A stretch of DNA of 64,000 bases from Afifella aestuarii (lineage in GTDB: Bacteria; Pseudomonadota; Alphaproteobacteria; Rhizobiales; Afifellaceae), in contig NZ_SAUF01000001.1 in the NCBI RefSeq assembly GCF_004023665.1, positions 1,598,501 through 1,662,500 on the forward strand. Direction: 5' to 3'. Of this stretch, positions 27,574-46,103 are shown piece by piece (positions within the stretch are counted from its first letter, which is position 1; the number at the start of each line of letters is the position of its first letter). The notes below the pieces were generated by a model. It was not told where the DNA came from. It worked only from the letters and a program-made list of their open reading frames with translations, and did not search any database. The translations under genes were made by a program, and so were the position numbers.

Positions 27574-27642
27574 GGCGGTCTTCCTCGCGAACGCGGCTCT
27601 TAAGCCACGTCGAGGCGGTTATTGCAATTGCGAGAAAGACAC

Positions 27643-27668
27643 AAAAAGGGCCGGCACGAAGCCGGCCC
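27643..27668 (-). terminator. Rho-independent terminator of the CsbD-like gene
   Basis: On the minus strand a perfect 8-bp stem (GGGCCGGC paired with GCCGGCCC, 5-base loop) is followed by TTTTT. It lies 30 bases after the CsbD-like stop codon and separates that gene from ugd. Confidence 0.85.
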
Positions 27669-27698
27669 TGAACTTGTTTATCCTACACCTCGACCGTC

Positions 27699-27896
27699 TT
27701 AGTGACGGGCGAGCCAGTCGTCGATTTCACGCTCGGCCTCGTCCTTGGCCACGCCGTAGCGTTCCTGGATCTTGCCGGCGAGTGCCTCGCGGTTGCCCTC
27801 GACCTGGTCGAGCTCGTCGTCGGTGAGCTTGCCCCACTGGGCCTGAGCGTTGCCCTTGAACTGTTTCCAGTTGCCTTGAACACGATCCCAATTCAT
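27699..27896 (-). CDS. CsbD-like general stress protein
   Basis: A 65-residue acidic and basic helical protein. The start MNWDRVQGNWKQFKG and the core WGKLTDDELDQVEGNREALAGKIQERYG are the CsbD family signature. CsbD-like proteins are strongly induced by general stress sigma factors; their molecular role is unknown. An exact GGAAC-N17-CGTT promoter lies just upstream and a terminator just downstream, so it is a one-gene unit. Confidence 0.95.
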   Translation of the reverse strand: MNWDRVQGNWKQFKGNAQAQWGKLTDDELDQVEGNREALAGKIQERYGVAKDEAEREIDDWLARH

Positions 27897-27927
27897 CTCG
27901 TTCTCCTGTTAATTACGATGTCAGGAA

Positions 27928-27953
27928 AACGAGGATCGCCGTCACGCGGTTCC
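27928..27953 (-). promoter_or_regulatory. EcfG-type promoter of the CsbD-like gene
   Basis: On the minus strand GGAAC (27953-27949), 17 bases, then CGTT (27931-27928), the exact consensus of alphaproteobacterial general stress sigma factors. Transcription would begin near 27921, about 25 bases before the start codon at 27896. Confidence 0.85.
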
Positions 27954-28006
27954 ACGCCGAGGTCGCCGGTCAAGGAAAACCTCTTACCCCGGCTAATAGA
28001 TTTCGG

Positions 28007-28900
28007 CTATTTGATTTCTTCCTTTACCTGCGCGTAAGCGAGCAGCGCGAAGAGTGCCGTACCGCCCAGGACGTTGCCTATTAATACAGGCACAGTGAAG
28101 TGCCATAACATTGTGAAGATGCTGATATCGCCATGCGCAACGAGCAGGAATGCCTCGACGCTGCCGGCAATAATGTGGGTGAATTCGGCGATCGCGATGA
28201 TGTAGGTGAAAAGCACGATCACGAGGAACTCGCTGCCGGAAGCGCTCGGCAAAATCCACACGATCGCAGCGATGAGAAAGCCGGCACCGACGGCGCGCAC
28301 GAACATTGTGAACCAACTCTTGTCCATCATCTCCCGGCTGATATCCAGCATCGCCTGGAAGACCTCCGGGTGGGTGCCGGGAAGAGCTGCATTGAAGAGC
28401 GCGACACCGAGCGTGCCGACCATATTGGCGACGAAGACCACGCTCCATAAGCGCATGACACAGAGGACATTTTTGCGCGTAAATTCCGCTGCGAGCGGCA
28501 GGATCGGGGCGATGGTATTTTCGGTGAAGAGCTGCTGGCGGGCGAGAATGACGAGCAGGAATCCGACGCAATAGCCAAAATTATCGACCAGCGGTCGCCA
28601 TGGAGCATCGGGCAGGTGTTCGCGCAAGGCTGCTTCGGCCACGAGCGAGAAACCGATCGACAATCCCGCGGCGATGCCCGACCACCACAGGGAGGAGGTG
28701 GGGCGCTCCATTTCCTCCTCGCCCTCCTGCCGCACCACTTCGTAAATCGCCGGCACGGACAGGCGCAGTCTTTTCTCGACGGTCTTGGCTTCACGCTGGG
28801 TGAGGCCGCGAGAATCCTGGGCGCGCTCGGCCCCTCGGCTCGCGCGCTCCTCGTTTCGCTTTGTCGGCTTTTCGTTTTGTTCGCTCTGAGTGTCGCTCAT
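28007..28900 (-). CDS. Formate/nitrite transporter family protein (YfdC-like)
   Basis: A 297-residue membrane protein of the FNT channel family. A charged cytoplasmic N-terminus of about 65 residues (rich in Glu, Arg and Gln) precedes six predicted membrane segments. FNT hallmarks include LFTENTIAPILPL and the re-entrant AEFTHIIAGSVEAFLLV. The long N-terminus and the FTH/AGS residues point to the YfdC branch, whose substrate is unknown, rather than FocA or NirC. It lies between the CsbD-like gene and the stress gene at 29068, but no EcfG-type promoter was found for it. Confidence 0.87.
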   Translation of the reverse strand: MSDTQSEQNEKPTKRNEERASRGAERAQDSRGLTQREAKTVEKRLRLSVPAIYEVVRQEGEEEMERPTSSLWWSGIAAGLSIGFSLVAEAALREHLPDAPWRPLVDNFGYCVGFLLVILARQQLFTENTIAPILPLAAEFTRKNVLCVMRLWSVVFVANMVGTLGVALFNAALPGTHPEVFQAMLDISREMMDKSWFTMFVRAVGAGFLIAAIVWILPSASGSEFLVIVLFTYIIAIAEFTHIIAGSVEAFLLVAHGDISIFTMLWHFTVPVLIGNVLGGTALFALLAYAQVKEEIK

Positions 28901-29022
28901 CTTCGCTCGATTCCGCTTCTCGCCATAATCCCGTCACCGGTGGATCAAGATTGCGCTGCAAGAGCGCGCTTCAAGGTGGCATGGCCAATCCGCCACGAGG
29001 GAAGGGCCGCGTTATCCGAGTG

Positions 29023-29047
29023 GGAACTCACCAGCCTTCGGCACATT
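29023..29047 (+). promoter_or_regulatory. Possible EcfG-type promoter (GGAAC-N16-CATT)
   Basis: GGAAC at 29023, then 16 bases and CATT at 29044; it fits the looser rule GGAAC-N18-TT but has A in place of G in the -10. The resulting leader to ATG 29068 would be about 14 bases, with AAGGAGG right at its start, so this call is weak. Confidence 0.4.
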
Positions 29048-29067
29048 CACTGCTCAAGGAGGACGAT

Positions 29068-29472
29068 ATGACAAACCGTCTCGATGGGCCCGGAGTGCCT
29101 TTCTCGTCGGACTATGCCGTTGGCGGCGATGCGGATGAGCCGGGCCTAGCCCAGCCGATCACCACAGACGATCTCGATGCGCTTGCGCATTCCGCGCGTG
29201 GAACGGTCGAGGAGCGTCGCGAAGCGCTTCGCGGGGCGCTCGATGAGCTAGAGGCGCGCCGTTCCATGGATGTTTCCCACGATGTCGACGGCGTCATCGC
29301 CTACGGCCGAGATCTGCTTCAGTCTCTTTCGGGAACCTCTCCGGTCTCGTCTGTCGAAACTGGAGATCCTGAGGGTTTCGGTTTTGCTCCGGAAGACCGG
29401 CTAGATCAGCCGGATGAAATTTTGGAGCGGGCGCAAGACTCGGTCAAGGAAGAAGACGCAGAACGCGAGTGA
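29068..29472 (+). CDS. Conserved-looking acidic protein of unknown function
   Basis: A 134-residue protein that I do not recognise. It is acidic (pI clearly low), with a middle helical part (LAHSARGTVEERREALRGAL then LEARRSMDVSHDVDGVIAYG) and an Asp/Glu-rich tail (ERAQDSVKEEDAERE). There is no signal peptide or membrane segment. ATG 29068 has an excellent ribosome site (AAGGAGG). It leads a likely operon with the next two genes and sits in the stress island, with a weak EcfG-like promoter upstream. Confidence 0.75.
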   Translation: MTNRLDGPGVPFSSDYAVGGDADEPGLAQPITTDDLDALAHSARGTVEERREALRGALDELEARRSMDVSHDVDGVIAYGRDLLQSLSGTSPVSSVETGDPEGFGFAPEDRLDQPDEILERAQDSVKEEDAERE

Positions 29473-29474
29473 AG

Positions 29475-29741
29475 ATGACCGCCATGCCGGCGGAGACGAA
29501 AGAGGTTTTGAAGAAGAAAATGGCGCAAACCTATCGCAAGGGTGAGAGCGTTGAGTGGCGGTTCGGTGGCTGGACCAGCCGAGGCCGGATCGTGGAAGTG
29601 TTCACGCGTCCTGTCGTGCGCAGCCTGGAAGGCCATGAAATCGTGCGCAATGCGGATGCCGAGAACCCGGCCTACCTGATCGAGCAGGACGACGAGAGCC
29701 GGGTGATGAAGTCGCATTGCGAACTGAGCGGCCTTCGCTGA
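29475..29741 (+). CDS. DUF2945 / TUDOR-like small protein
   Basis: An 88-residue protein. The core KGESVEWRFGGWTSRGRIVEV, then NPAYLIEQDD and KSHCEL, matches the DUF2945 family, annotated as hypervirulence-associated TUDOR-like. It is a small beta-barrel of unknown function, often found beside stress genes. The first in-frame ATG is 29475; a GTG at 29469 overlaps the previous stop. It almost touches the upstream gene, so the two are co-transcribed. Confidence 0.82.
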   Translation: MTAMPAETKEVLKKKMAQTYRKGESVEWRFGGWTSRGRIVEVFTRPVVRSLEGHEIVRNADAENPAYLIEQDDESRVMKSHCELSGLR

Positions 29742-29752
29742 GAGACAATTTG

Positions 29753-29770
29753 AGCGTCTCAGCAGACGCT
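29753..29770 (+). other. Hairpin between the DUF2945 and lipid kinase genes
   Basis: A perfect 7-bp stem (AGCGTCT paired with AGACGCT) with a 4-base loop and no T-run. It may tune expression or RNA stability between the two genes; it is not a classical terminator. Confidence 0.35.
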
Positions 29771-29792
29771 GGCGTTGGGGGCGAGCGTCGCA

Positions 29793-30773
29793 ATGACCGG
29801 GAATGAAAGAGATTCTGCCGAGGCGTCCGAACAGCCCGGACCCTCACGCGCTGCTATGCGTCTGGCGCTTGTTCTCAACAGCGATTCCGGCACCTTGCGC
29901 ACGTGCGAGCCGTCTGCAGGCGAAGAGATCGCGGATATTTTCCGGCAGGCCGGGCACGACGTGACCCTTCACTGGAAGGCGGGCAAGGAGGCGATCGCCG
30001 CCATCGAGGCGGCCTTCGCGGACGATGCTTATGACGCGGTGATCATCGGCGGTGGGGACGGCAGCGTGTCGTTTGCCGCCTCGCAAGCATACCAGAGCGG
30101 CAAAGTGCTTGGCATCCTGCCGCTTGGCACTATGAACCTTTTCGCCCGCGCTTTGGGCGTTCCGCTCGACATGTATGAGGCGGCGAGGGTGCTCGCTGCG
30201 GGTGAAGTCTCTCGCGTCGATATCGCGGATGTGAACGGGCGGCTCTTCGTCCACCATGTCACTCTCGGGCTGCATCCGAAGATGATCAGGCTGCGCCAGG
30301 AACTCGATTACGGATCGCGTTTCGGCAAGCTCATGGCGAGCGCCAAGGCTCTCCGCCTTGCGTTGCGGCGGCCGCCGATCATTCGCGCACGTCTCGCCCT
30401 CGCCGATGAGGAGATCGACGTTGAAACTGCGGCCCTCGTGGTCAGCAACGGGCCTCTTGGGGATGGGCATCTGCCTTATGCCGATGATCCTTGCGCCGAG
30501 ACGCTCGGCATCTATTTCGCCACGTCGCGCAAATGGACCGACCTTCTGGAACTTGCGGCGGCCTTCGCGCTCGGGCGCATGAGCGACAATCCGATTCTGT
30601 CGATGCGACGGTCTCAGGCCGTCACGATTTCCATGCAGCGCTCCGAAGCGCGAGCCTCGGTCGACGGGGAAGTGGTGACGCTCAGACCGCCGCTCAAGAT
30701 CCAGCAATATCCCCGCGGGCTGACCGTGCTGGCGCCCGCGGGACATATCGCGAAGGACGCCTCAGGTCAGTAG
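29793..30773 (+). CDS. Diacylglycerol/lipid kinase family protein (YegS-like)
   Basis: A 326-residue member of the diacylglycerol kinase catalytic-domain family. The ATP-site motif IIGGGDGSVSFAA is near residue 90, followed by LGILPLGTMNLFARALGVP, both hallmarks of YegS/DgkB-like soluble lipid kinases. The C-terminal beta domain ends with the usual SVDGEVV stretch. The substrate could be diacylglycerol, phosphatidylglycerol or a sphingoid base. The start could also be the ATG at 29856, where homology begins. It overlaps the convergent baeRF gene by 7 bases at the 3' end. Confidence 0.87.
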   Translation: MTGNERDSAEASEQPGPSRAAMRLALVLNSDSGTLRTCEPSAGEEIADIFRQAGHDVTLHWKAGKEAIAAIEAAFADDAYDAVIIGGGDGSVSFAASQAYQSGKVLGILPLGTMNLFARALGVPLDMYEAARVLAAGEVSRVDIADVNGRLFVHHVTLGLHPKMIRLRQELDYGSRFGKLMASAKALRLALRRPPIIRARLALADEEIDVETAALVVSNGPLGDGHLPYADDPCAETLGIYFATSRKWTDLLELAAAFALGRMSDNPILSMRRSQAVTISMQRSEARASVDGEVVTLRPPLKIQQYPRGLTVLAPAGHIAKDASGQ

Positions 30774-31927
30774 CGGGTCAGCGCTGCGACAGGGCCAAGG
30801 TTTTCGGCCGTCTCGCCTTCCATGCTGTAGATCGAGCCGCCTGCCTGGAGCGCTCTCACCGCCACGAAATCAATGAGGTCGAACTGTTCGGGACCCGGTT
30901 CATCGACCACATGCACGGCGTGTTCGTCGGAATTGTAGGTTCCCCAAAGATGGGCCGAGCGGGCGATGAAGACGGCTTCCAGCCGCCCCTCGATCGATGC
31001 GCGAGCGATCTCGTCGATGTCGCGTAGCGCGCCGTTGGAGCTTTCGTCCTTGAGGCGTGCCTTGAGACGCTCCAGCGCATCACGCCGATCACCCTCGACT
31101 TCCGGCTGCATCACCGACCAGGAGGCCTGGTGCAATTCCGCCTCGCTCTTGGAGGCTGGATCGACCTTCAGGTTCTCCTCCGAAACGCCCTTATAGTGCA
31201 GCTTGTTCTGCAGGTGGCCTAAGGTGCGCGGCTCGGCTGCGATCACCAGAGGCGCGCCTGCACCTCCCAGCTTGTGATCGACGGCCTTGGCGATCTGCCC
31301 CAGATATTCGTCGAGCTCGACCTCGTTGTAATCGTCCGGGCTCGGCCCGAGCGAATGGTATTGCGGTACGCCTGCGGATCCGCCTTGCTGGCCGCCGGAC
31401 GCGTTCGAATGGAAGCCGACATTGCCGTCAAACTCCGTCATGCCGCGGAATTTCGCGAGGCTTTTTGGCATGTTCGGAACGTCGACAGGGCGAAGGTCGT
31501 GCTTGCGCACCTTATAGAGCTGTACGTCGTCACGCGTGACGCACAGAAGGTAGCCGTGGCCCGCGGATGAGAAGATGCGGATCAGCGGGCGTAGATAAAA
31601 GCGCTCGCCGACCAGCGAAAGCTCTTCGACTTCGCCCGGCAGCTTGATCCATTGCACGCCGTTTTCGTCGATGAGGACGGCCAGCGATTGGTCCTGGTGC
31701 TGCCAGAAGTCGAAATCGTCCAGCCGTTCTTCCGCCGGCTGCAAGAGTGCGTCGACGTCTCGTCCTGCGTCTGCCGCCTGAAGATTGCGCCGTGCCTCTG
31801 CGAGAGCGTTTTTGAGGCGCGTCGGATTTTGCAGGGTTTCGGCGCTGCGCATCTCCATCGGCAGGTAGATGCTGATCTTGGGAAAGCCTGTGCGCTCCGC
31901 CAGGTCGCGTATCCAGTCGCGTTTCAT
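30767..31927 (-). CDS. Bacterial archaeo-eukaryotic release factor-like protein (baeRF family 3)
   Basis: A 386-residue protein. The N-terminal PKISIYLPMEMR with NPTRLKNALAEAR and a following W...SLAVLID strand match the baeRF group, named for similarity to archaeal and eukaryotic peptide release factors. A GGQ tripeptide is present at residues 178-180 in a flexible Gly/Ser/Gln-rich loop, the motif that cuts peptidyl-tRNA in aRF1/eRF1. The C-terminal part (LGGAGAPLVIAAEPRTLGHL onward) has the L7Ae-like layout. Ribosome site AGGGAGA. A possible EcfG promoter precedes it. It is likely a stress-linked ribosome rescue or tRNA-acting factor (inference). Confidence 0.8.
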   Translation of the reverse strand: MKRDWIRDLAERTGFPKISIYLPMEMRSAETLQNPTRLKNALAEARRNLQAADAGRDVDALLQPAEERLDDFDFWQHQDQSLAVLIDENGVQWIKLPGEVEELSLVGERFYLRPLIRIFSSAGHGYLLCVTRDDVQLYKVRKHDLRPVDVPNMPKSLAKFRGMTEFDGNVGFHSNASGGQQGGSAGVPQYHSLGPSPDDYNEVELDEYLGQIAKAVDHKLGGAGAPLVIAAEPRTLGHLQNKLHYKGVSEENLKVDPASKSEAELHQASWSVMQPEVEGDRRDALERLKARLKDESSNGALRDIDEIARASIEGRLEAVFIARSAHLWGTYNSDEHAVHVVDEPGPEQFDLIDFVAVRALQAGGSIYSMEGETAENLGPVAALTRY

Positions 31928-31960
31928 TGTTATCTCCCTGTGGGTTGCAGCTTTCTGGGG

Positions 31961-31986
31961 AATGGTCGCCGCCCATCACGAGTTCC
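31961..31986 (-). promoter_or_regulatory. Possible EcfG-type promoter of the baeRF gene
   Basis: On the minus strand GGAAC (31986-31982), 17 bases, CATT (31964-31961); one change from the CGTT consensus. Transcription would start about 27 bases before the start codon. Confidence 0.55.
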
Positions 31987-32075
31987 TTGGAGGACCGGCC
32001 CAGGTTGTCACATTTCTTTCGCAACGCATGGGCGCCTTCGCCGTTGTGTCCTCAAACGGCAACGTGAGCAGAGCG

Positions 32076-32339
32076 ATGGCGAAGAATCACGGAAACCAGG
32101 TCAAAGACGACAAGCTTTATGAGGATCTGCGCGAGCGCGGCGAATCCAAGGAGAAAGCCGCAAGGATCGCCAATGCGCGCGCCAATCCGTCCATGCATCC
32201 TTCCAAGAAGGGCGGAACGAATCCCGCCTACGAGGAGTGGAGCAAGGACGACCTTTACGATCGGGCGCAAGAGCTCGGCATCGATGGGCGCTCGAAGATG
32301 GACAAATCCGATCTCATCGACGCCCTCCGCAATCACTAG
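32076..32339 (+). CDS. Small basic protein with Rho N-terminal (SAP-like) motif
   Basis: An 87-residue protein. The first half is charged and basic (LRERGESKEKAARIANARAN). The C-terminal DDLYDRAQELGIDGRSKMDK then LIDALR is the helix-extended-helix of the Rho N-terminal/SAP-like family, which binds nucleic acids. Similar small proteins in alphaproteobacteria are annotated as DUF7218 or Rho-N domain proteins. ATG 32076 is the probable start; a GTG at 32064 is also in frame. No exact EcfG site was found upstream. Confidence 0.8.
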   Translation: MAKNHGNQVKDDKLYEDLRERGESKEKAARIANARANPSMHPSKKGGTNPAYEEWSKDDLYDRAQELGIDGRSKMDKSDLIDALRNH

Positions 32340-32414
32340 TTTCGCACCGTACGAAAGGGCGCAGACGGAGAGAGCTCGACCCTTTGCAACCCACGGCACT
32401 TTTCAGGAGCGCGT

Positions 32415-32549
32415 ATGCCCCGGGATGACATGAATGAAGTCGAAGTGACGCAGGCGGAGGAGAGAAACACCAACCGCCATGTCCTTGTCTGGGGGACGGT
32501 GTTGGCGATCGTTGCTCTAGGCGCGATTGCGCTGTGGTTCGGGCTTTAG
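32415..32549 (+). CDS. 44-residue single-pass membrane protein
   Basis: A short gene. The first 20 residues are polar and acidic (MPRDDMNEVEVTQAEERNTN), and residues 22-43 form one hydrophobic segment (VLVWGTVLAIVALGAIALWF) that runs to the C-terminus. This is a tail-anchored or N-in membrane peptide. A good ribosome site, CAGGAG, is 5 bases before the ATG. It lies 75 bases after the Rho-N gene and is likely co-transcribed with it. The function is not recognised. Confidence 0.65.
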   Translation: MPRDDMNEVEVTQAEERNTNRHVLVWGTVLAIVALGAIALWFGL

Positions 32550-32871
32550 GCCTTCCCTTTTCTCAAAGCTGCGGGTTCCATTCTCTGGCCAGACGCCTTT
32601 GCTGCAACGCCAAATTCGGCCGCATTTGTGTTTGACAAGCGGCGTGAAGTCGTGGAAGCCGAGGCGATAAACGGCCTGCTAACCTTGATCATGGTAAATG
32701 CCTTACAGGTTCAAGACTGTGGTTGATGTCGCTTTCCGACGGGATGCGACGCGGCCGTCCGGCACCCTTGCATCCGGCCCGAGCGTCGGCTGCGGCGTTT
32801 CGCACCAGAAATTGCTTTGCCGGAACAAAACCCGAGCATCCGAATTAACCTCGTGACGGAGTTGAAGTGAC
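32550..32871 (+). other. Gene-free region upstream of nepR
   Basis: These 322 bases show no credible gene. The only signal recognised is the EcfG-like element at 32822-32846. A phyR gene, often divergent from nepR-ecfG in relatives, is not here. Confidence 0.5.
32822..32846 (+). promoter_or_regulatory. Probable autoregulatory EcfG promoter of nepR-ecfG
   Basis: GGAAC at 32822-32826, 18 bases, then TT at 32845-32846, fitting the reduced consensus GGAAC-N18/19-TT although the full CGTT is AATT here. It would give a leader of about 20 bases before nepR, and sigma genes of this class usually control themselves. Confidence 0.5.
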
Positions 32872-33093
32872 ATGGATCAATCTGACCGGGAGGGCAGCGG
32901 TCGCTCGCAGGAGGATATTATGTTGGCGGACAGCAACGGCCGCGAAAATGGAATGCACCCTCTGGTTCAGTCTCAGATCGGGAAGCATTTGCGCGCCGTT
33001 TACGACGATGTGGTGAACGAGCCAGTTCCTCAGCGCTTCCTCGATCTCCTGGAGCAGCTGGAAGAATCCACAACCAAAAACCGTCGCAGTTAG
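32872..33093 (+). CDS. nepR: Anti-sigma factor NepR
   Basis: NepR binds EcfG and keeps it silent until phosphorylated PhyR pulls it away. It has 73 residues. The family core, IGKHLRAVYDDVVNEPVPQR followed by FLDLLEQLEE, is unmistakable: two amphipathic helices with the conserved basic-PVP-(Q/D)R-F bridge. It lies 11 bases before ecfG in the standard gene order. The matching PhyR and its histidine kinases must be elsewhere in the genome. Confidence 0.94.
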   Translation: MDQSDREGSGRSQEDIMLADSNGRENGMHPLVQSQIGKHLRAVYDDVVNEPVPQRFLDLLEQLEESTTKNRRS

Positions 33094-33104
33094 GCCGAGC
33101 CCAT

Positions 33105-33653
33105 ATGGCCGTATCCGAGGCTCTTCGACAGGAGCTCCTGTCAGCAATTCCCAATCTTCGTGCTTTTGCCGTCTCGCTTTGCGGCAATGGCGAGCGTGCG
33201 GACGATCTCGTCCAAGAGACGCTCATGAAGGCATGGGCCAAGTTTCACACCTTCCAGGAAGGCACCAATCTGCGGGCCTGGCTTTTCACCATCTTGCGCA
33301 ACGAATTCTATTCGCAGGTGCGCAAGAAGGGCCGAGAGGTCGAGGACGCCGAAGGCGCCTATGCCGCCAAGCTCGCATCGCAGCCGGCCCAGAACGGGCA
33401 TATGGATCTGCGCGACTTCAACGAGGCGCTATCGCAGCTGCCGGACGACCAGCGTGAAGCCCTGGTGCTCGTGGGCGCGTCCGGTTTCTCCTACGAGGAA
33501 GCTTCCGAGATCTGCGATTGTGCGGTCGGCACGATCAAAAGCCGGGTCAGTCGTGCACGTACGAGGCTCTCCGAACTCCTCGCTCTGGAGGAGGGGGAGA
33601 CCTACGGCTCTGATCCGATGGCGACAACGGTGATCACGCGCAGTTTCAGCTGA
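33105..33653 (+). CDS. ecfG: General stress ECF sigma factor EcfG
   Basis: A 182-residue ECF sigma factor. Region 2 is ERADDLVQETLMKAWAKFHT with GTNLRAWLFTILRNEFYSQ, and region 4 is LSQLPDDQREALVLVGASG with the helix-turn-helix EASEICDCAVGTIKSRVSRA. Pairing with NepR identifies it as the EcfG (ECF15) group that directs the alphaproteobacterial general stress response at GGAAC-N16/17-CGTT promoters. Several such sites lie nearby. A strong terminator follows at 33674. Confidence 0.95.
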   Translation: MAVSEALRQELLSAIPNLRAFAVSLCGNGERADDLVQETLMKAWAKFHTFQEGTNLRAWLFTILRNEFYSQVRKKGREVEDAEGAYAAKLASQPAQNGHMDLRDFNEALSQLPDDQREALVLVGASGFSYEEASEICDCAVGTIKSRVSRARTRLSELLALEEGETYGSDPMATTVITRSFS

Positions 33654-33673
33654 TCTTAAACGAGACATGTAAG

Positions 33674-33704
33674 AAGGGCCGCTCGGATCGAGCGGCCCTT
33701 TTTT
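33674..33704 (+). terminator. Rho-independent terminator after ecfG
   Basis: A perfect 12-bp stem (AAGGGCCGCTCG paired with CGAGCGGCCCTT) with a 3-base loop and a run of six T, 21 bases after the ecfG stop. The convergent PPOX gene ends at 33740, and the stem may serve both directions, although the T-run favours the plus strand. Confidence 0.93.
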
Positions 33705-33739
33705 GTTTGCGGTCCGGCTGTAGGGCCGTCTGAGGCCGC

Positions 33740-34219
33740 CTAAAGAGCGACCTTACGGTTTTCGCCGAGATTGGGCTCCTCGCCCGACTGCTTCGCCTTG
33801 ATCAGGTTCCAGCGCCTCTGCAAGGCGTTGAAGCCCTCCCAGTATTCGCCGCTCGACGGCACCACTCGGATGACGGCGACGTCGGGGTCTTCTTTGCCGC
33901 CGGGAAACCAGCTTTCGGCATCGTCGAACCAGACAGCATCAATGAGCCGCTGGTCGGTGGTGAGGTACGCCTGTCCCGAAACCGAGACATATTCTTTCCG
34001 TCCAGGCCGCGCGAAAGAGAGATTAACCTCCGGATGCGCGGCAAGCTCATCCGCCTTGTGAGATGATTTCCGCGTCAAGAGATGAAACTCGTGCGTGGAT
34101 TTGTCGACGTCGAAGCCCATCGGGCGAGAGCGCAGCTCGCCACCGTCCCGGCTTGTCAGCATGCAGACGGTCACGTCTTCGATAAGATCGAAGAACTCCT
34201 CGATCGGCGCATCTGTCAT
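33740..34219 (-). CDS. General stress protein of the pyridoxamine 5'-phosphate oxidase fold
   Basis: A 159-residue split-barrel flavin-type protein. Features are FFDLIEDVTVCMLTSRD, GELRSRPMGF, then LLTRKSSHKADELAAHPEVNLSF and a C-terminal GKEDPDVAVIRVVPSSGEYW, matching the general stress protein 26 group (PPOX-like). Such proteins bind FMN, FAD or F420; the substrate is unknown. ATG 34219 has AAGGAGA ahead. An exact EcfG promoter (34250-34275) lies 31 bases upstream, inside the 3' end of the topoisomerase gene. Confidence 0.88.
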   Translation of the reverse strand: MTDAPIEEFFDLIEDVTVCMLTSRDGGELRSRPMGFDVDKSTHEFHLLTRKSSHKADELAAHPEVNLSFARPGRKEYVSVSGQAYLTTDQRLIDAVWFDDAESWFPGGKEDPDVAVIRVVPSSGEYWEGFNALQRRWNLIKAKQSGEEPNLGENRKVAL

Positions 34220-34247
34220 CAGCGTATCTCCTTGTTTCTCGGACGAT

Positions 34248-35312
34248 TCAACGCCCGGCGGCCGGCTCATGTTCCGCCTTCATGCTTGCCTCTTCGGCCT
34301 CCAAAAATCGCATGAGAGCAGTCTCCGCCGCCGAGAGATGTGTGCGGTGCGGTCCGCGCAGAAGATCGGCGCGCAAGCGTTCCTCCTGGAACGCCTGGAC
34401 AACCAGCGGATGCACGTAACTGGAACGGCATACGGCCATTGTATTGGCGAGCTTGTCGCTGACCTCGCGCATCACGGATGCGATGGCTCGTTTCCGGGCC
34501 ACCTCGCTTTCCGGTTTCTCGCTTGTCACGAAGAGTTCAAGGGCTGCCGCGCTCGCGGCAAAGGTGCGGAAATCTTTCGACGTCACCTGCGCTCCGGCCG
34601 CGTTCTTCAGATATTGATTCAAGTCCCGGGCGTTCAGGTAAGCCCGGCTTCCATCGCTCTCGCGATAGGCGAACAGGCGGCGTTTGCCGATTGCCTTAAG
34701 CTTACGAAGTCGCGACGGGAGGTAGGTGTCTGGGATCACCTTGTGGATTTTCTTCCCCGATTTGCCTGTGAAATCGAGCGTCACGGTGCGGCCGTTCAGC
34801 CGCACATCCTTTTTAAGAAGGGTGGTTGCACCGCGGGCGCCTTCTCCGTCACTCGGCTCGCCGCGATGACCCGACCGCAACAAGGCTCGGTCGACGAGGC
34901 GCGCCGCGACAGCTGCAGAAAAACGCCGGTCGGTGCGACGGCGGTCGAGATCTCGCGCGATACGCTCGCGGATTTTCGGGAGCGCCCGGCCGAACCGTAA
35001 AAGGCGCTCGGCCTTGATGGCGTTGCGGACCTCCGTCCAATCCTCGTGATAGCGGTATTGCAGGCGACCTTCCTGGTCGCGTCCGACGGCCTGCAGATGC
35101 GCATGCGGGTCCTCGGCGATGCAGACCGAGGTCCAGGCTGGCGGGATAACGAGGTCTTCCAGGCGCCGGCGCAGGCGGCGATCGCGGATGGTCTTGCCAT
35201 CACATCTATAGGTGAAGCCACGCCCGCTGCGGCGGCGCTCGATCTTGAGGTTCTCCGCGCAGATGTAGTTGAGCCCGCACAATTCGGCTCGTTCCTGAAG
35301 CGTGTCGGCCAT
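34248..35312 (-). CDS. DNA topoisomerase IB (poxvirus-like bacterial type)
   Basis: A type IB topoisomerase of 354 residues that relaxes supercoils through a 3'-phosphotyrosine. Features are the N-terminal domain with IPPAWTSVCIAEDPHAHLQA and GRLQYRYHEDW, the catalytic basic residues around RTVTLDFTGKSGKK and TSKDFRTFAAS, and the nucleophile tyrosine in CRSSYVHPLV near residue 305. Bacterial homologues often lie next to stress genes. An exact EcfG promoter lies just upstream. The ribosome site is GGAGG. Confidence 0.93.
   Translation of the reverse strand: MADTLQERAELCGLNYICAENLKIERRRSGRGFTYRCDGKTIRDRRLRRRLEDLVIPPAWTSVCIAEDPHAHLQAVGRDQEGRLQYRYHEDWTEVRNAIKAERLLRFGRALPKIRERIARDLDRRRTDRRFSAAVAARLVDRALLRSGHRGEPSDGEGARGATTLLKKDVRLNGRTVTLDFTGKSGKKIHKVIPDTYLPSRLRKLKAIGKRRLFAYRESDGSRAYLNARDLNQYLKNAAGAQVTSKDFRTFAASAAALELFVTSEKPESEVARKRAIASVMREVSDKLANTMAVCRSSYVHPLVVQAFQEERLRADLLRGPHRTHLSAAETALMRFLEAEEASMKAEHEPAAGR
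34250..34275 (-). promoter_or_regulatory. EcfG-type promoter of the PPOX-fold gene (inside the topoisomerase 3' end)
   Basis: On the minus strand GGAAC (34275-34271), 17 bases, CGTT (34253-34250): exact consensus. It overlaps the last codons of the topoisomerase IB gene, so the PPOX gene can be transcribed both from its own promoter and by read-through. Confidence 0.82.
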
Positions 35313-35336
35313 CGTGCCTCCAAAGGACGGGCACGA

Positions 35337-35362
35337 AACGGGCAGGAGAGAGCCCTGGTTCC
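35337..35362 (-). promoter_or_regulatory. EcfG-type promoter of the topoisomerase IB gene
   Basis: On the minus strand GGAAC (35362-35358), 17 bases, CGTT (35340-35337): exact consensus. Transcription would start near 35330, 18 bases before the start codon. Confidence 0.85.
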
Positions 35363-35440
35363 GCGGCTGAGCGCAGAGCTTCCTAAGCCGGCAACCCTAT
35401 GTTTCTCAGAGGCTTGCGAAGGTTGGAGCGCTCTTGTCGC

Positions 35441-36394
35441 TCAGTTCGTATAGCCGCGGCCAGCCGGTGAACGCGCCAGCCTCTGGCCGCGTCTCGCTTC
35501 GCGATGGATCGTGTAAAGCGCGGCCGCGATGACGATGCCGGCGCCGATGAAGGTGCGTATGGCGGGAATCTCGCTGAAGATCAGGATGCCGAGGATCGTC
35601 GCCCAAAGGAGGCGAGCGTAATCGAGCGCCGCCAGAACGGTCGCTTCGCCGGCGCGAAATGCCTGTATGTTGCAGCTTTGTGCCGTGACCGAGACGAGCC
35701 CTATGGCGACGAGCAGGCCGAATTCCGTCCAGGTCGGCCACACCCATTGCCAGATCGCGAGAGGTGTCAGCAAAACACCCACGAAGACCGTCTGATAGGC
35801 GAGGATGGTGATCGCGAGGTCTGAGCGCGACAGGAGCCGAATGATCACCATGACGAGGGCCGCCGAGGCGGCGCCCGCTACGGCGAGAAGGCCATAGCCG
35901 TCGATGCCTGCGCCGGTCGGGTTGAGCATCACCATGACGCCGATGAAGCCGCAGATGATCGCGCCCCAGCGGCGAGGACCGACCGCCTCTTTGAGGATGA
36001 CGATGGCAAAGAGCGGGATGAAAAAGCTCTTGGCGAAAGCGATCGCGGTTGCATCAGCGAGCGGCAGATGAACAACCGCTGTGAAGCCGCAGAACATCGC
36101 AATGACGGCGAAGAGGATGCGTCCCGCGTGAAGGAGAGGGCGCCGCGTCGTCAGCGAACCCGGAAACCCCCGGATGATCAGCGGCAGAGCGGCGAGAAAC
36201 ATCACCGACTGACGCACGACCAGGATTTCAGCGACCGGCAGCCTCGTGCCGATGAGCTTGATCAGCGTCATCATGATGGTGAAGAGAATAGTGGCGACGA
36301 TGATCCAGGCGGCACCACGGAGATTGCCGGGCAGAGCCTGAAACCGTTTCGTCAGTCCGGCAGATGTTTCGCCGAACCGGCCCGTTCCATCCAT
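35441..36394 (-). CDS. EamA/DMT-family transporter
   Basis: A 317-residue membrane protein with about ten membrane segments in two EamA repeats, the second starting near residue 165. Conserved points include an early LIKLIGTRLPVAEILVVRQ and LALLDYARLLWATILG-like segments in each half. The substrate is unknown; family members export amino acids, metabolites or drugs. It is divergent from the molybdenum hydroxylase gene at 36513, and a second EamA gene follows that one. Confidence 0.87.
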   Translation of the reverse strand: MDGTGRFGETSAGLTKRFQALPGNLRGAAWIIVATILFTIMMTLIKLIGTRLPVAEILVVRQSVMFLAALPLIIRGFPGSLTTRRPLLHAGRILFAVIAMFCGFTAVVHLPLADATAIAFAKSFFIPLFAIVILKEAVGPRRWGAIICGFIGVMVMLNPTGAGIDGYGLLAVAGAASAALVMVIIRLLSRSDLAITILAYQTVFVGVLLTPLAIWQWVWPTWTEFGLLVAIGLVSVTAQSCNIQAFRAGEATVLAALDYARLLWATILGILIFSEIPAIRTFIGAGIVIAAALYTIHREARRGQRLARSPAGRGYTN

Positions 36395-45101: not shown

Positions 45102-46103
45102 TTAGCCGTTGCCGTTCCACCAGGCCTTGATGTCGTCGAGGCGGCTGCGCTCGCTCTCGACCGGATTGTCGGGATTTTCCGTCCAACCCACCATGGAATC
45201 GTCGTAGAGCGTCACGTTCTTGTGTCCGAGAACTTCCGACAGGACGAACCAGTTCATCGAGGCCCAGTGCCCGGTGTTGCAGTAGCTCACCACCTCGGCC
45301 TTCGACTGCGCCGCAGCCTCCGGCAGGAGCGATGCGGCGACCGTCTGCGGCACGAGCTTTCCCGTCGCCGGATCGAAGAAGACCGACTGGTCGAGATTGA
45401 CGGCGCCCGGAAGATGACCGAAGCGCTTCGCGGCCGGATGCTTTTCCTTGCCCTTGAACTGTTCGGCCGGACGTCCATCGAGGAGAACGGTGGAGCCGTC
45501 ATCGAGATGCGAACGGACGTCATCGCTCGAGACGAGCAGTTCCGGCCGCAGTTGCGCCTTGAAGTCGGCGGCAACGATTTCGGGCGTATCCGTCGCAAGC
45601 GTCGTGCTCGGATCGGCATTCCAGGCGCGGTAGCCGCCATTCAAAATGGCGAGGTGATCGAGGCCCGCGAGCTTGAGCGTCCAATAGATGCGCGTCGCGC
45701 CGCCGAACTCGCTGGAGCTCGACGCGGCCGGGACAATGACGATGGTCTCGTCGCCGGAAATCCCCAGGCTGCCGATATGTTTCTCAAGAGCTGAAAGCTC
45801 CGGAAGCTGACCGGGAACGCCGTCACGCGTCGCGCGCCAGCCGCCCGGATAGGGTGCGTGGACGGCGCCCGGAATGTGGCCTTCCGCATAGGGATCGGAT
45901 CCGTCCGCCTCGCCCCTCGTATCGAGAACGACGAGATCTGGCTGGTCGAGATTGGTCTTGAGCCAGTCGACGTCCACGAGAGGCCCGGGAACGTCGGCGG
46001 CGTGGGCGTGCCCGACAAAGCTGAAGCAGGCTGCGGCCGTGAGAATGATGGCGGCTGCCAGTTCCACGGGAACCAGCCGGCCGAAAAGACGATGATGGGT
46101 CAT
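45102..46103 (-). CDS. Periplasmic two-domain sulfurtransferase (rhodanese)
   Basis: A 333-residue exported protein with a Sec signal peptide (AAAIILTAAACFSFVGHAHA) and two rhodanese domains. The first (about 40-170) lacks an active Cys (IVPAASSSSEFGG region) and is structural; the second (about 195-330) carries the catalytic loop CNTGHWAS near residue 277. It would move sulfane sulfur from thiosulfate in the periplasm. Forty bases separate it from the YeeE/YedE gene, so the cluster rhodanese-yedE-peptide reads as one operon. Confidence 0.93.
   Translation of the reverse strand: MTHHRLFGRLVPVELAAAIILTAAACFSFVGHAHAADVPGPLVDVDWLKTNLDQPDLVVLDTRGEADGSDPYAEGHIPGAVHAPYPGGWRATRDGVPGQLPELSALEKHIGSLGISGDETIVIVPAASSSSEFGGATRIYWTLKLAGLDHLAILNGGYRAWNADPSTTLATDTPEIVAADFKAQLRPELLVSSDDVRSHLDDGSTVLLDGRPAEQFKGKEKHPAAKRFGHLPGAVNLDQSVFFDPATGKLVPQTVAASLLPEAAAQSKAEVVSYCNTGHWASMNWFVLSEVLGHKNVTLYDDSMVGWTENPDNPVESERSRLDDIKAWWNGNG

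Follow-up and report, generated by a model that had tools for sequence, protein, structure and literature searches.

Does the gene for the general-stress sigma factor EcfG lie inside the regulon that it is predicted to control, and can neighbouring genes that lack an assigned role be placed in the stress response by this position? The question is raised by a 64,000-nucleotide stretch of Afifella aestuarii DNA (positions 1598501-1662500 of contig C1 in the 3.9-Mb genome G000; hereafter the window), in which nepR and ecfG are surrounded by matches to the EcfG-type promoter motif. Our analysis suggests that this region is very probably a general-stress-response island, in which EcfG would transcribe nepR-ecfG and six neighbouring units after the PhyR/NepR switch. 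The strongest argument that the predicted promoters are genuine comes from their conservation rather than from the number of sites.

Three exact GGAAC-N17-CGTT elements, preceding the genes for a CsbD-like protein, a PPOX-type protein and DNA topoisomerase IB (TopIB), stand at the positions and on the strand originally predicted (Table 1), and they are the only such matches in the window (3 found versus 0.40 expected, a number reached in 1 of 100 shuffles). The distance from element to gene start had been given as 18-31 nt, of which the upper bound holds and the lower does not, the gaps being 31 nt for CsbD (ATG at 27896), 30 nt for PPOX (ATG at 34219) and 24 nt for TopIB (ATG at 35312); the conserved ATG was taken as the PPOX start instead of the start of the longer open reading frame at 34270. 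The PPOX promoter lies within the last codons and 3′ end of the TopIB gene (34248-34275), so that promoter and protein end share sequence. When spacers of 16 to 18 nt are allowed, a fourth match appears in the window at 45118 (1.41 expected; 5 of 100 shuffles reach four). This N18 site (45118-45092), 31 nt before a called start, was left uncounted because 11 of 14 N18 sites are intragenic according to our home-made codon-usage caller, which supplied all called gene starts in place of a published one, and because N18 spacing is absent from the published CGTT sites consulted.

To assess conservation, upstream stretches of orthologues near ecfG were compared in A. marina (L009), Afifella sp. IM 167 (L010), A. 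pfennigii (L011) and Faunimonas pinastri (L012). The EcfG of the window shares 99% identity with the A. marina DSM 2698 protein, 92% with those of IM 167 and A. pfennigii and 85% with that of Faunimonas. The exact CsbD element occurs in all four Afifella loci at -57 to -60, with none found in the Faunimonas stretch; the PPOX element is exact in all five loci at -53 to -55, and the TopIB element in 4/4 (the window, A. marina, IM 167 and Faunimonas) at -48 to -54, with none found in the A. pfennigii stretch. Across 13 compared pairs, the boxes are identical at 116 of 117 positions and the spacers at 84 of 213; agreement of the boxes is biased upward since the sites were chosen for matching, and the weight of the footprint lies in the presence and position of the elements rather than in this figure. 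That the elements are kept at nearly the same distance while their spacers diverge argues that they are real EcfG-type promoters. No conserved site precedes the flanking ugd, EamA, XDH and second EamA genes in the compared Afifella and Faunimonas loci, where single one-mismatch matches were seen before ugd in A. pfennigii and XDH in Faunimonas. Farther afield, Acuticoccus loci carry one-mismatch sites near -100 before PPOX relatives (L013, L015) and at -57 before CsbD (L015).

Relatives likewise keep the looser matches that the original prediction placed before nepR, the gene at 29068 and the baeRF gene, all three of which are present in the window. For nepR, GGAAC-N16-AATT is found in the window, A. 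marina and IM 167 and GGAAC-N17-AGTT in A. pfennigii, making 4/4 in Afifella, and Faunimonas has an exact N16 site farther upstream; nepR-ecfG may thus be autoregulated through GGAAC-N16-AATT. The 29068 gene is preceded by GGAAC-N16/17-CATT in 5/5 loci. A search of 297 genomes recovered its family in 12: the seven closest of the 12 loci keep GGAAC at -45 to -52 (six of them with CATT), four distant members have no site directly upstream and one could not be placed. A structural model of the product (pLDDT 65) has three predicted helices and low-confidence tails. The 29068 and Hva1_TUDOR reading frames overlap by 4 bases; the latter gene is probably co-transcribed with the former, and the lipid kinase gene is probably the third of the operon. 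Upstream of baeRF, GGAAC-N17-CATT occurs in 3/3 loci (the window, A. marina at -59 and A. pfennigii), the gene having not been found in the IM 167 and Faunimonas stretches. An element absent from the original prediction, GCAAC-N16-CGTT, precedes the DUF7218/Rho_N gene in all three loci where this gene was recognised (the window, A. marina and A. pfennigii), suggesting that the gene at 32076 probably belongs to the island too. The neighbours without an assigned role can thus be placed, provisionally, in the stress response through their kept promoter elements, as had been proposed.

A genome-wide motif scan, envisaged as a check of the prediction, supports this placement of nepR-ecfG. The genome contains 45 exact N16/N17 sites (14 of these N17) plus 14 N18 sites; 24 of the 45 lie 8-150 nt before a same-strand called start, compared with 2 of the 14 with N18 spacing (P 0.01, Fisher test). 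PPOX entered this count manually, on the basis of its conserved start, as the caller had picked the longer reading frame. The motif tends to mark gene starts in this genome, and nepR-ecfG therefore sits inside its own predicted regulon. Three sites fall no more than 6 kb from ecfG (P about 4e-4 under uniform placement, 1e-5 for N17 only). Raw counts say little, since the backward-read pattern that served as the scan's own control is commoner in the genome than the motif (47+29 versus 21+24). A family scan of 20 of 25 genes behind exact sites, allowing up to 240 nt, left 3 of the 20 without a family and identified Ku, HU, DJ-1/PfpI, an alpha-amylase family protein, ExoD, DUF2252, DUF4112, DUF3309, entericidin, an AI-2E transporter, PRC-barrel, cytochrome c and an outer-membrane beta-barrel; judged from the site alone, these genes would belong to the regulon. 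In addition, a promoter matrix whose training set was 245 sites in 76 loci (L013-L088), without Afifella or Faunimonas, placed the PPOX, 29068, nepR, CsbD and TopIB sites, in that order, as its top five in the window (16.3 to 13.8). What carries weight here is the placement of all five within the island, each shortly upstream of a gene start.

The regulators themselves are recognisable. The ecfG product matches both Pfam ECF sigma regions 2 and 4 and scores 284.8 bits against NF009199, an alphaproteobacterial sigma subfamily (cut-off 219), the next-ranked equivalog models falling under their cut-offs; it is presumably an ECF15 sigma factor, a label taken from reviews. NepR, encoded directly upstream, scores 66.4 bits against PF18557 (cut-off 25.7) and 40.8 bits against NCBIfam NF051865, below its cut-off of 100. 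PhyR (C1:544336; 81 bits; PhyR_sigma2, sigma-like and receiver domains) is encoded outside the island, 1.09 Mb away, beside an HWE kinase gene, and an exact N16 site lies between the two genes. A primary ecfG is typically found beside nepR and phyR, according to the literature on EcfG. We infer the use of the elements by EcfG itself, the operon structure and the partner switch as follows. According to the known scheme, stress-sensing HWE kinases would phosphorylate PhyR, which would then remove NepR from EcfG, and EcfG with RNA polymerase would transcribe its own nepR-ecfG operon together with CsbD, the 29068-Tudor-lipid kinase operon, the Balon-like baeRF gene (see below), the DUF7218/Rho_N gene, PPOX and TopIB.

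To see how far these assignments extend, 150 genomes of the order were searched, which yielded TopIB in 35 and PPOX in 37; 30 loci were taken for each, 26 of each outside Afifella. In these outside loci, an exact site stands before TopIB in 9/26 and before PPOX in 8/26, and loose sites (exact ones included) in 18/26 and 19/26, respectively; the control gene ugd, treated alike, gave 0/27 exact, 2/27 loose and no opposite-strand sites. Published targets agree. The EcfG-dependent list of Sphingomonas melonis includes Topoisomerase IB (GGAAC-N17-CATT, 24 nt), general stress protein 26, Ku, PRC-barrel and a 'protein required for attachment to host cells' (PMC6599016), and csbD, gsp, ku and ecnAB are EcfG targets in Sphingopyxis granuli, where GGAAC and GCAAC top the list of -35 boxes by frequency and the -10 sequence is flexible (PMC7083833). 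The motif of Rhizobium etli is GGAAC-N16-CGTT (PMC3892343). The other Afifella genes behind exact sites fit these targets. As the literature already counts TopIB, general stress protein 26, Ku and csbD among EcfG targets, this part is known biology in a new genus.

The baeRF gene adds a Balon-like member. The looser site originally noted before it is confirmed, and the identity of the product is corrected here, from full-length similarity, to that of a relative of the ribosome hibernation factor Balon. The protein matches baeRF_family3 (the sole such match in the genome) and aligns over its full length with chain B of PDB 8rd8, the Balon of P. urativorans (residues 6-386 to 5-369; E 5e-15 from the single sequence); a profile search returned 8rd8_B at E 7e-39 and MSMEG_1130 Balon (8v9j) at 1e-5, and Balon is the closest solved structure by sequence. 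The Balon paper names entry code 8rd8, whose structure is deposited under another name, and identifies AOC03_06830 as Balon (PMC10901736). Against NCBIfam NF052287 ('AOC03_06830 family ribosome hibernation factor') the protein scores 108 bits, under the cut-off of 330, so we call it Balon-like and not Balon. Balon is marked by the lack of NIKS and GGQ motifs and by binding of the ribosomal A site together with EF-Tu; NIKS was not seen in the baeRF reading frames examined, and an AlphaFold model built from 3 sequences (pLDDT 49) was too poor for a fold search. Homology suggests that the product probably parks ribosomes during stress.

EcfG-type sites are also crowded around ecfG well beyond Afifella. 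We examined the best 80 of 89 loci with an EcfG relative (1.37 Mb; mostly Hyphomicrobiales, with a few Sphingomonadales and others), in stretches that end at 10 kb and that include many metagenome assemblies and some short contigs. These loci hold 256 exact N16/N17 sites, 177 of them before called starts, and 38 sites with wrong spacings (13/14, 19/20, 22/23), 3 of them before starts. The density of all sites is 186 per Mb, versus 15.1 per Mb across 81 whole genomes of the order. Thirty ugd loci gave three sites, all of them the CsbD promoters of three Afifella loci, and the 27 others (114 kb) gave none. Once the nepR, phyR and one kinase cluster are set aside, 49/80 loci still hold 124 target genes. 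Their density per Mb is 38 within 1 kb (the place of nepR-ecfG itself), peaks at 246 between 1 and 2 kb, drops to 165 at 2-3 kb and to 65-99 in every kb between 3 and 8 kb, and ends with 25 at 8-9 kb and 0 at 9-10 kb. With one locus per 80% EcfG identity cluster, 27 loci remain. Sixteen of them contain 49 targets, whose density per Mb falls from one 2-kb bin to the next (168, 133, 104, 87 and 23); the other 11 show exact sites, if any, only at the switch genes. The targets vary between loci and include what would be, judged from their sequences, KGG-type, CsbD, PRC-barrel, DUF1328-like, DUF3309-like, AI-2E-like, ferritin-like and Ku-like genes. Elsewhere, genome G068 has a dense cluster (C12:398490-411342) of eight of its exact GGAAC-N16/17-CGTT sites within 13 kb. 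We found no description of crowding around ecfG in the literature searched, which included part of PMC8103513 and had most subscription journals outside its reach. A reading that we hold tentatively is that ecfG acts as a centre of attraction, with lineage-specific direct targets accumulating within about 8-9 kb, mostly in the rhizobial order; the Afifella set includes the Balon-like factor, so the stress response would there directly switch on ribosome hibernation.

Several observations weigh against the island and its extension. The baeRF and DUF7218 sites score low in the matrix (9.7 and 8.7); 8/26 TopIB and 7/26 PPOX loci outside the genus are without even a loose site, and loose sites on the opposite strand occur in 6/26 TopIB and 5/26 PPOX stretches. 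In A. pfennigii the baeRF site stands at -100 and not at -59, the promoter evidence for this gene is confined to Afifella and no site precedes 6 distant baeRF relatives, which is why we offer EcfG-driven ribosome hibernation as a proposal and not as a finding. First-order shuffles yield 2.35 sites scoring at least 14 and 3.65 scoring at least 13 per 64 kb, so that matrix scores alone are not rare, and any three of the 45 genome sites fall within 7.4 kb somewhere in 13% of random placements (P 0.13), which makes the site count by itself only fair evidence. These figures, with the frequency of loose sites in shuffles, are what would be expected if the matches were chance sequence in GC-rich DNA. 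We nevertheless consider chance extremely improbable, given that position is kept in four to five genomes despite diverged spacers, that enrichment before starts is specific to the right spacing (177/256 versus 3/38) and that ugd gave 0/27. A second EcfG-like sigma factor (C1:404319-404786; 45% identical to EcfG) could share or own some of the promoters; next to its gene lie those for a PhyR-like regulator, an HWE kinase and a protein with weak similarity to NepR. Variable -10 boxes are described for Sphingopyxis, where two EcfG paralogues may differ in how they use them (PMC7083833). That the second factor of Afifella mainly serves the promoters is very unlikely, since the island surrounds the canonical nepR-ecfG pair and the promoters are kept in genomes whose EcfG proteins share 85-99% identity.

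The clustering might instead carry no regulatory meaning, reflecting inherited gene order or arrivals that kept their old promoters. The gene order of Afifella and Faunimonas is largely common by descent, and the 11 of 27 deduplicated loci mentioned above fit this view; we find it somewhat unlikely, however, because density falls with distance from ecfG after deduplication too and because different target genes at different loci suggest repeated accumulation. For the baeRF product, a role in releasing peptides or rescuing ribosomes, in place of resting them, would be in line with a GGQ in a glycine-rich loop in three Afifella genomes searched (the window, L190; L191; L192), as in true release factors. 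At that place GGQ is absent from A. pfennigii and L193; as neither A. pfennigii nor a relative with 39-40% identity retains it there, it was dropped as not conserved. Release or rescue is therefore unlikely, Balon being the closest solved structure over the full length, and ribosome parking is the function that we favour.

Further features of the region are collected in Table 1. The transporter gene, a possible further member of the island, has no site of its own in the window or A. marina; in IM 167 and A. pfennigii an exact minus-strand site overlaps the beginning of the 29068 coding sequence, in IM 167 at a distance of 138 nt from the called start of the transporter gene, and the transporter gene region of Faunimonas contains GGAAC-N17-GATT. 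The 44-aa protein gene has no site of its own in the window, and an exact site accompanies the 44-aa protein at a like place in Faunimonas. On the minus strand, 3′ of CsbD, a strong hairpin and T-run (27647-27669) make a likely terminator, and a scan of 27600-35600 for sigma-70-type promoters gave 1 site versus 1.5 expected. In locus L185 a distant 29068-family gene directly follows a gene with an exact EcfG-type site in front, which looks Dps-like from its sequence and which again points to the stress response. A lipid kinase relative occurs near ecfG in 12/80 loci; in L034, L036, L037, L039, L047, L052, L060 and L069 the match begins 0.6-1.8 kb after the ecfG start on the same strand. The second sigma factor belongs to a divergent partner-switch-like module (C1:404000-406500; L090, L094) that comprises the PhyR-like regulator, an HWE kinase with a receiver and a 90-aa protein whose NepR match (13.9 bits) is below the cut-off of 25.7.

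Table 1. Genes and predicted EcfG-type promoters around nepR-ecfG (window coordinates).
Feature	Position	Strand	Remarks
CsbD-like stress protein, 65 aa	27699..27896	-	PF05532
Promoter of CsbD gene, GGAAC-N17-CGTT	27928..27953	-	exact (N16 or N17) in window, L009, L010, L011
Formate/nitrite-type transporter gene	at 28007		family match of product
Promoter of 29068 operon, GGAAC-N16-CATT	29023..29047	+	kept in relatives
29068 product, 134 aa	29068..29472	+	without Pfam or NCBIfam family
Hva1_TUDOR small protein	29469..29741	+	PF11160
Lipid kinase, DAGK_cat, YegS/MamU type	29793..30773	+	start codon uncertain
baeRF protein, 386 aa	30767..31927	-	full-length relative of ribosome hibernation factor Balon
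Promoter of baeRF gene, GGAAC-N17-CATT	31986..31961	-	kept in Afifella
Probable promoter of DUF7218/Rho_N gene, GCAAC-N16-CGTT	32021..32045	+	in window, L009, L011
DUF7218 + Rho_N-like protein, 87 aa	32076..32339	+	family search
44-aa protein	32415..32549	+	no family; apparently single-span membrane, judged by eye
Promoter of nepR-ecfG, GGAAC-N16-AATT	32822..32846	+	kept in relatives
nepR, anti-sigma factor	32872..33093	+	PF18557
ecfG, general-stress ECF sigma factor	33105..33653	+	Pfam and NCBIfam matches
PPOX-type protein (Pyrid_ox_like)	33740..34219	-	PF16242
DNA topoisomerase IB (TopIB)	34248..35312	-	PF01028, PF21338
Promoter of PPOX, GGAAC-N17-CGTT	34250..34275	-	exact (N16 or N17) in window, L009-L012
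Promoter of TopIB, GGAAC-N17-CGTT	35337..35362	-	exact (N16 or N17) in window, L009, L010, L012

The 29068 family, the Tudor protein and the DUF7218/Rho_N gene can be placed in the general stress response through a testable promoter, and TopIB and PPOX are supported as widespread EcfG targets in the order. A direct link from an alphaproteobacterial stress sigma factor to ribosome hibernation is proposed, and the crowding of EcfG-type promoters offers a cheap route to new stress genes in ecfG-bearing genomes. The kind of system is known; what this case adds is a new genus, the set of genes found around ecfG, a Balon-like member and a measurement of the crowding. The baeRF gene as a full-length Balon relative looks newer, as does the crowding around ecfG with its thinning by 8-10 kb. 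Like Balon (8rd8; MSMEG_1130, 8v9j), to which it is similar over its full length, the baeRF product is encoded among stress genes; Balon genes are reported among stress genes that include alternative sigma-70 factors (PMC10901736). Unlike Balon, it falls under the NCBIfam cut-off, has a GGQ-bearing loop and is under predicted EcfG control, a link with EcfG having not been found for Balon in the literature searched. The island resembles the PhyR-NepR-EcfG (ECF15) systems of Sphingomonas, Sphingopyxis and Rhizobium in its nepR-ecfG pair with an EcfG-type promoter and in its GGAAC-N16/17-CGTT-like targets, with CsbD, general stress protein 26, TopIB and Ku among those in the published lists consulted; it differs from them in the distant location of phyR and in the Balon-like gene and the 29068 operon that form part of the Afifella set.

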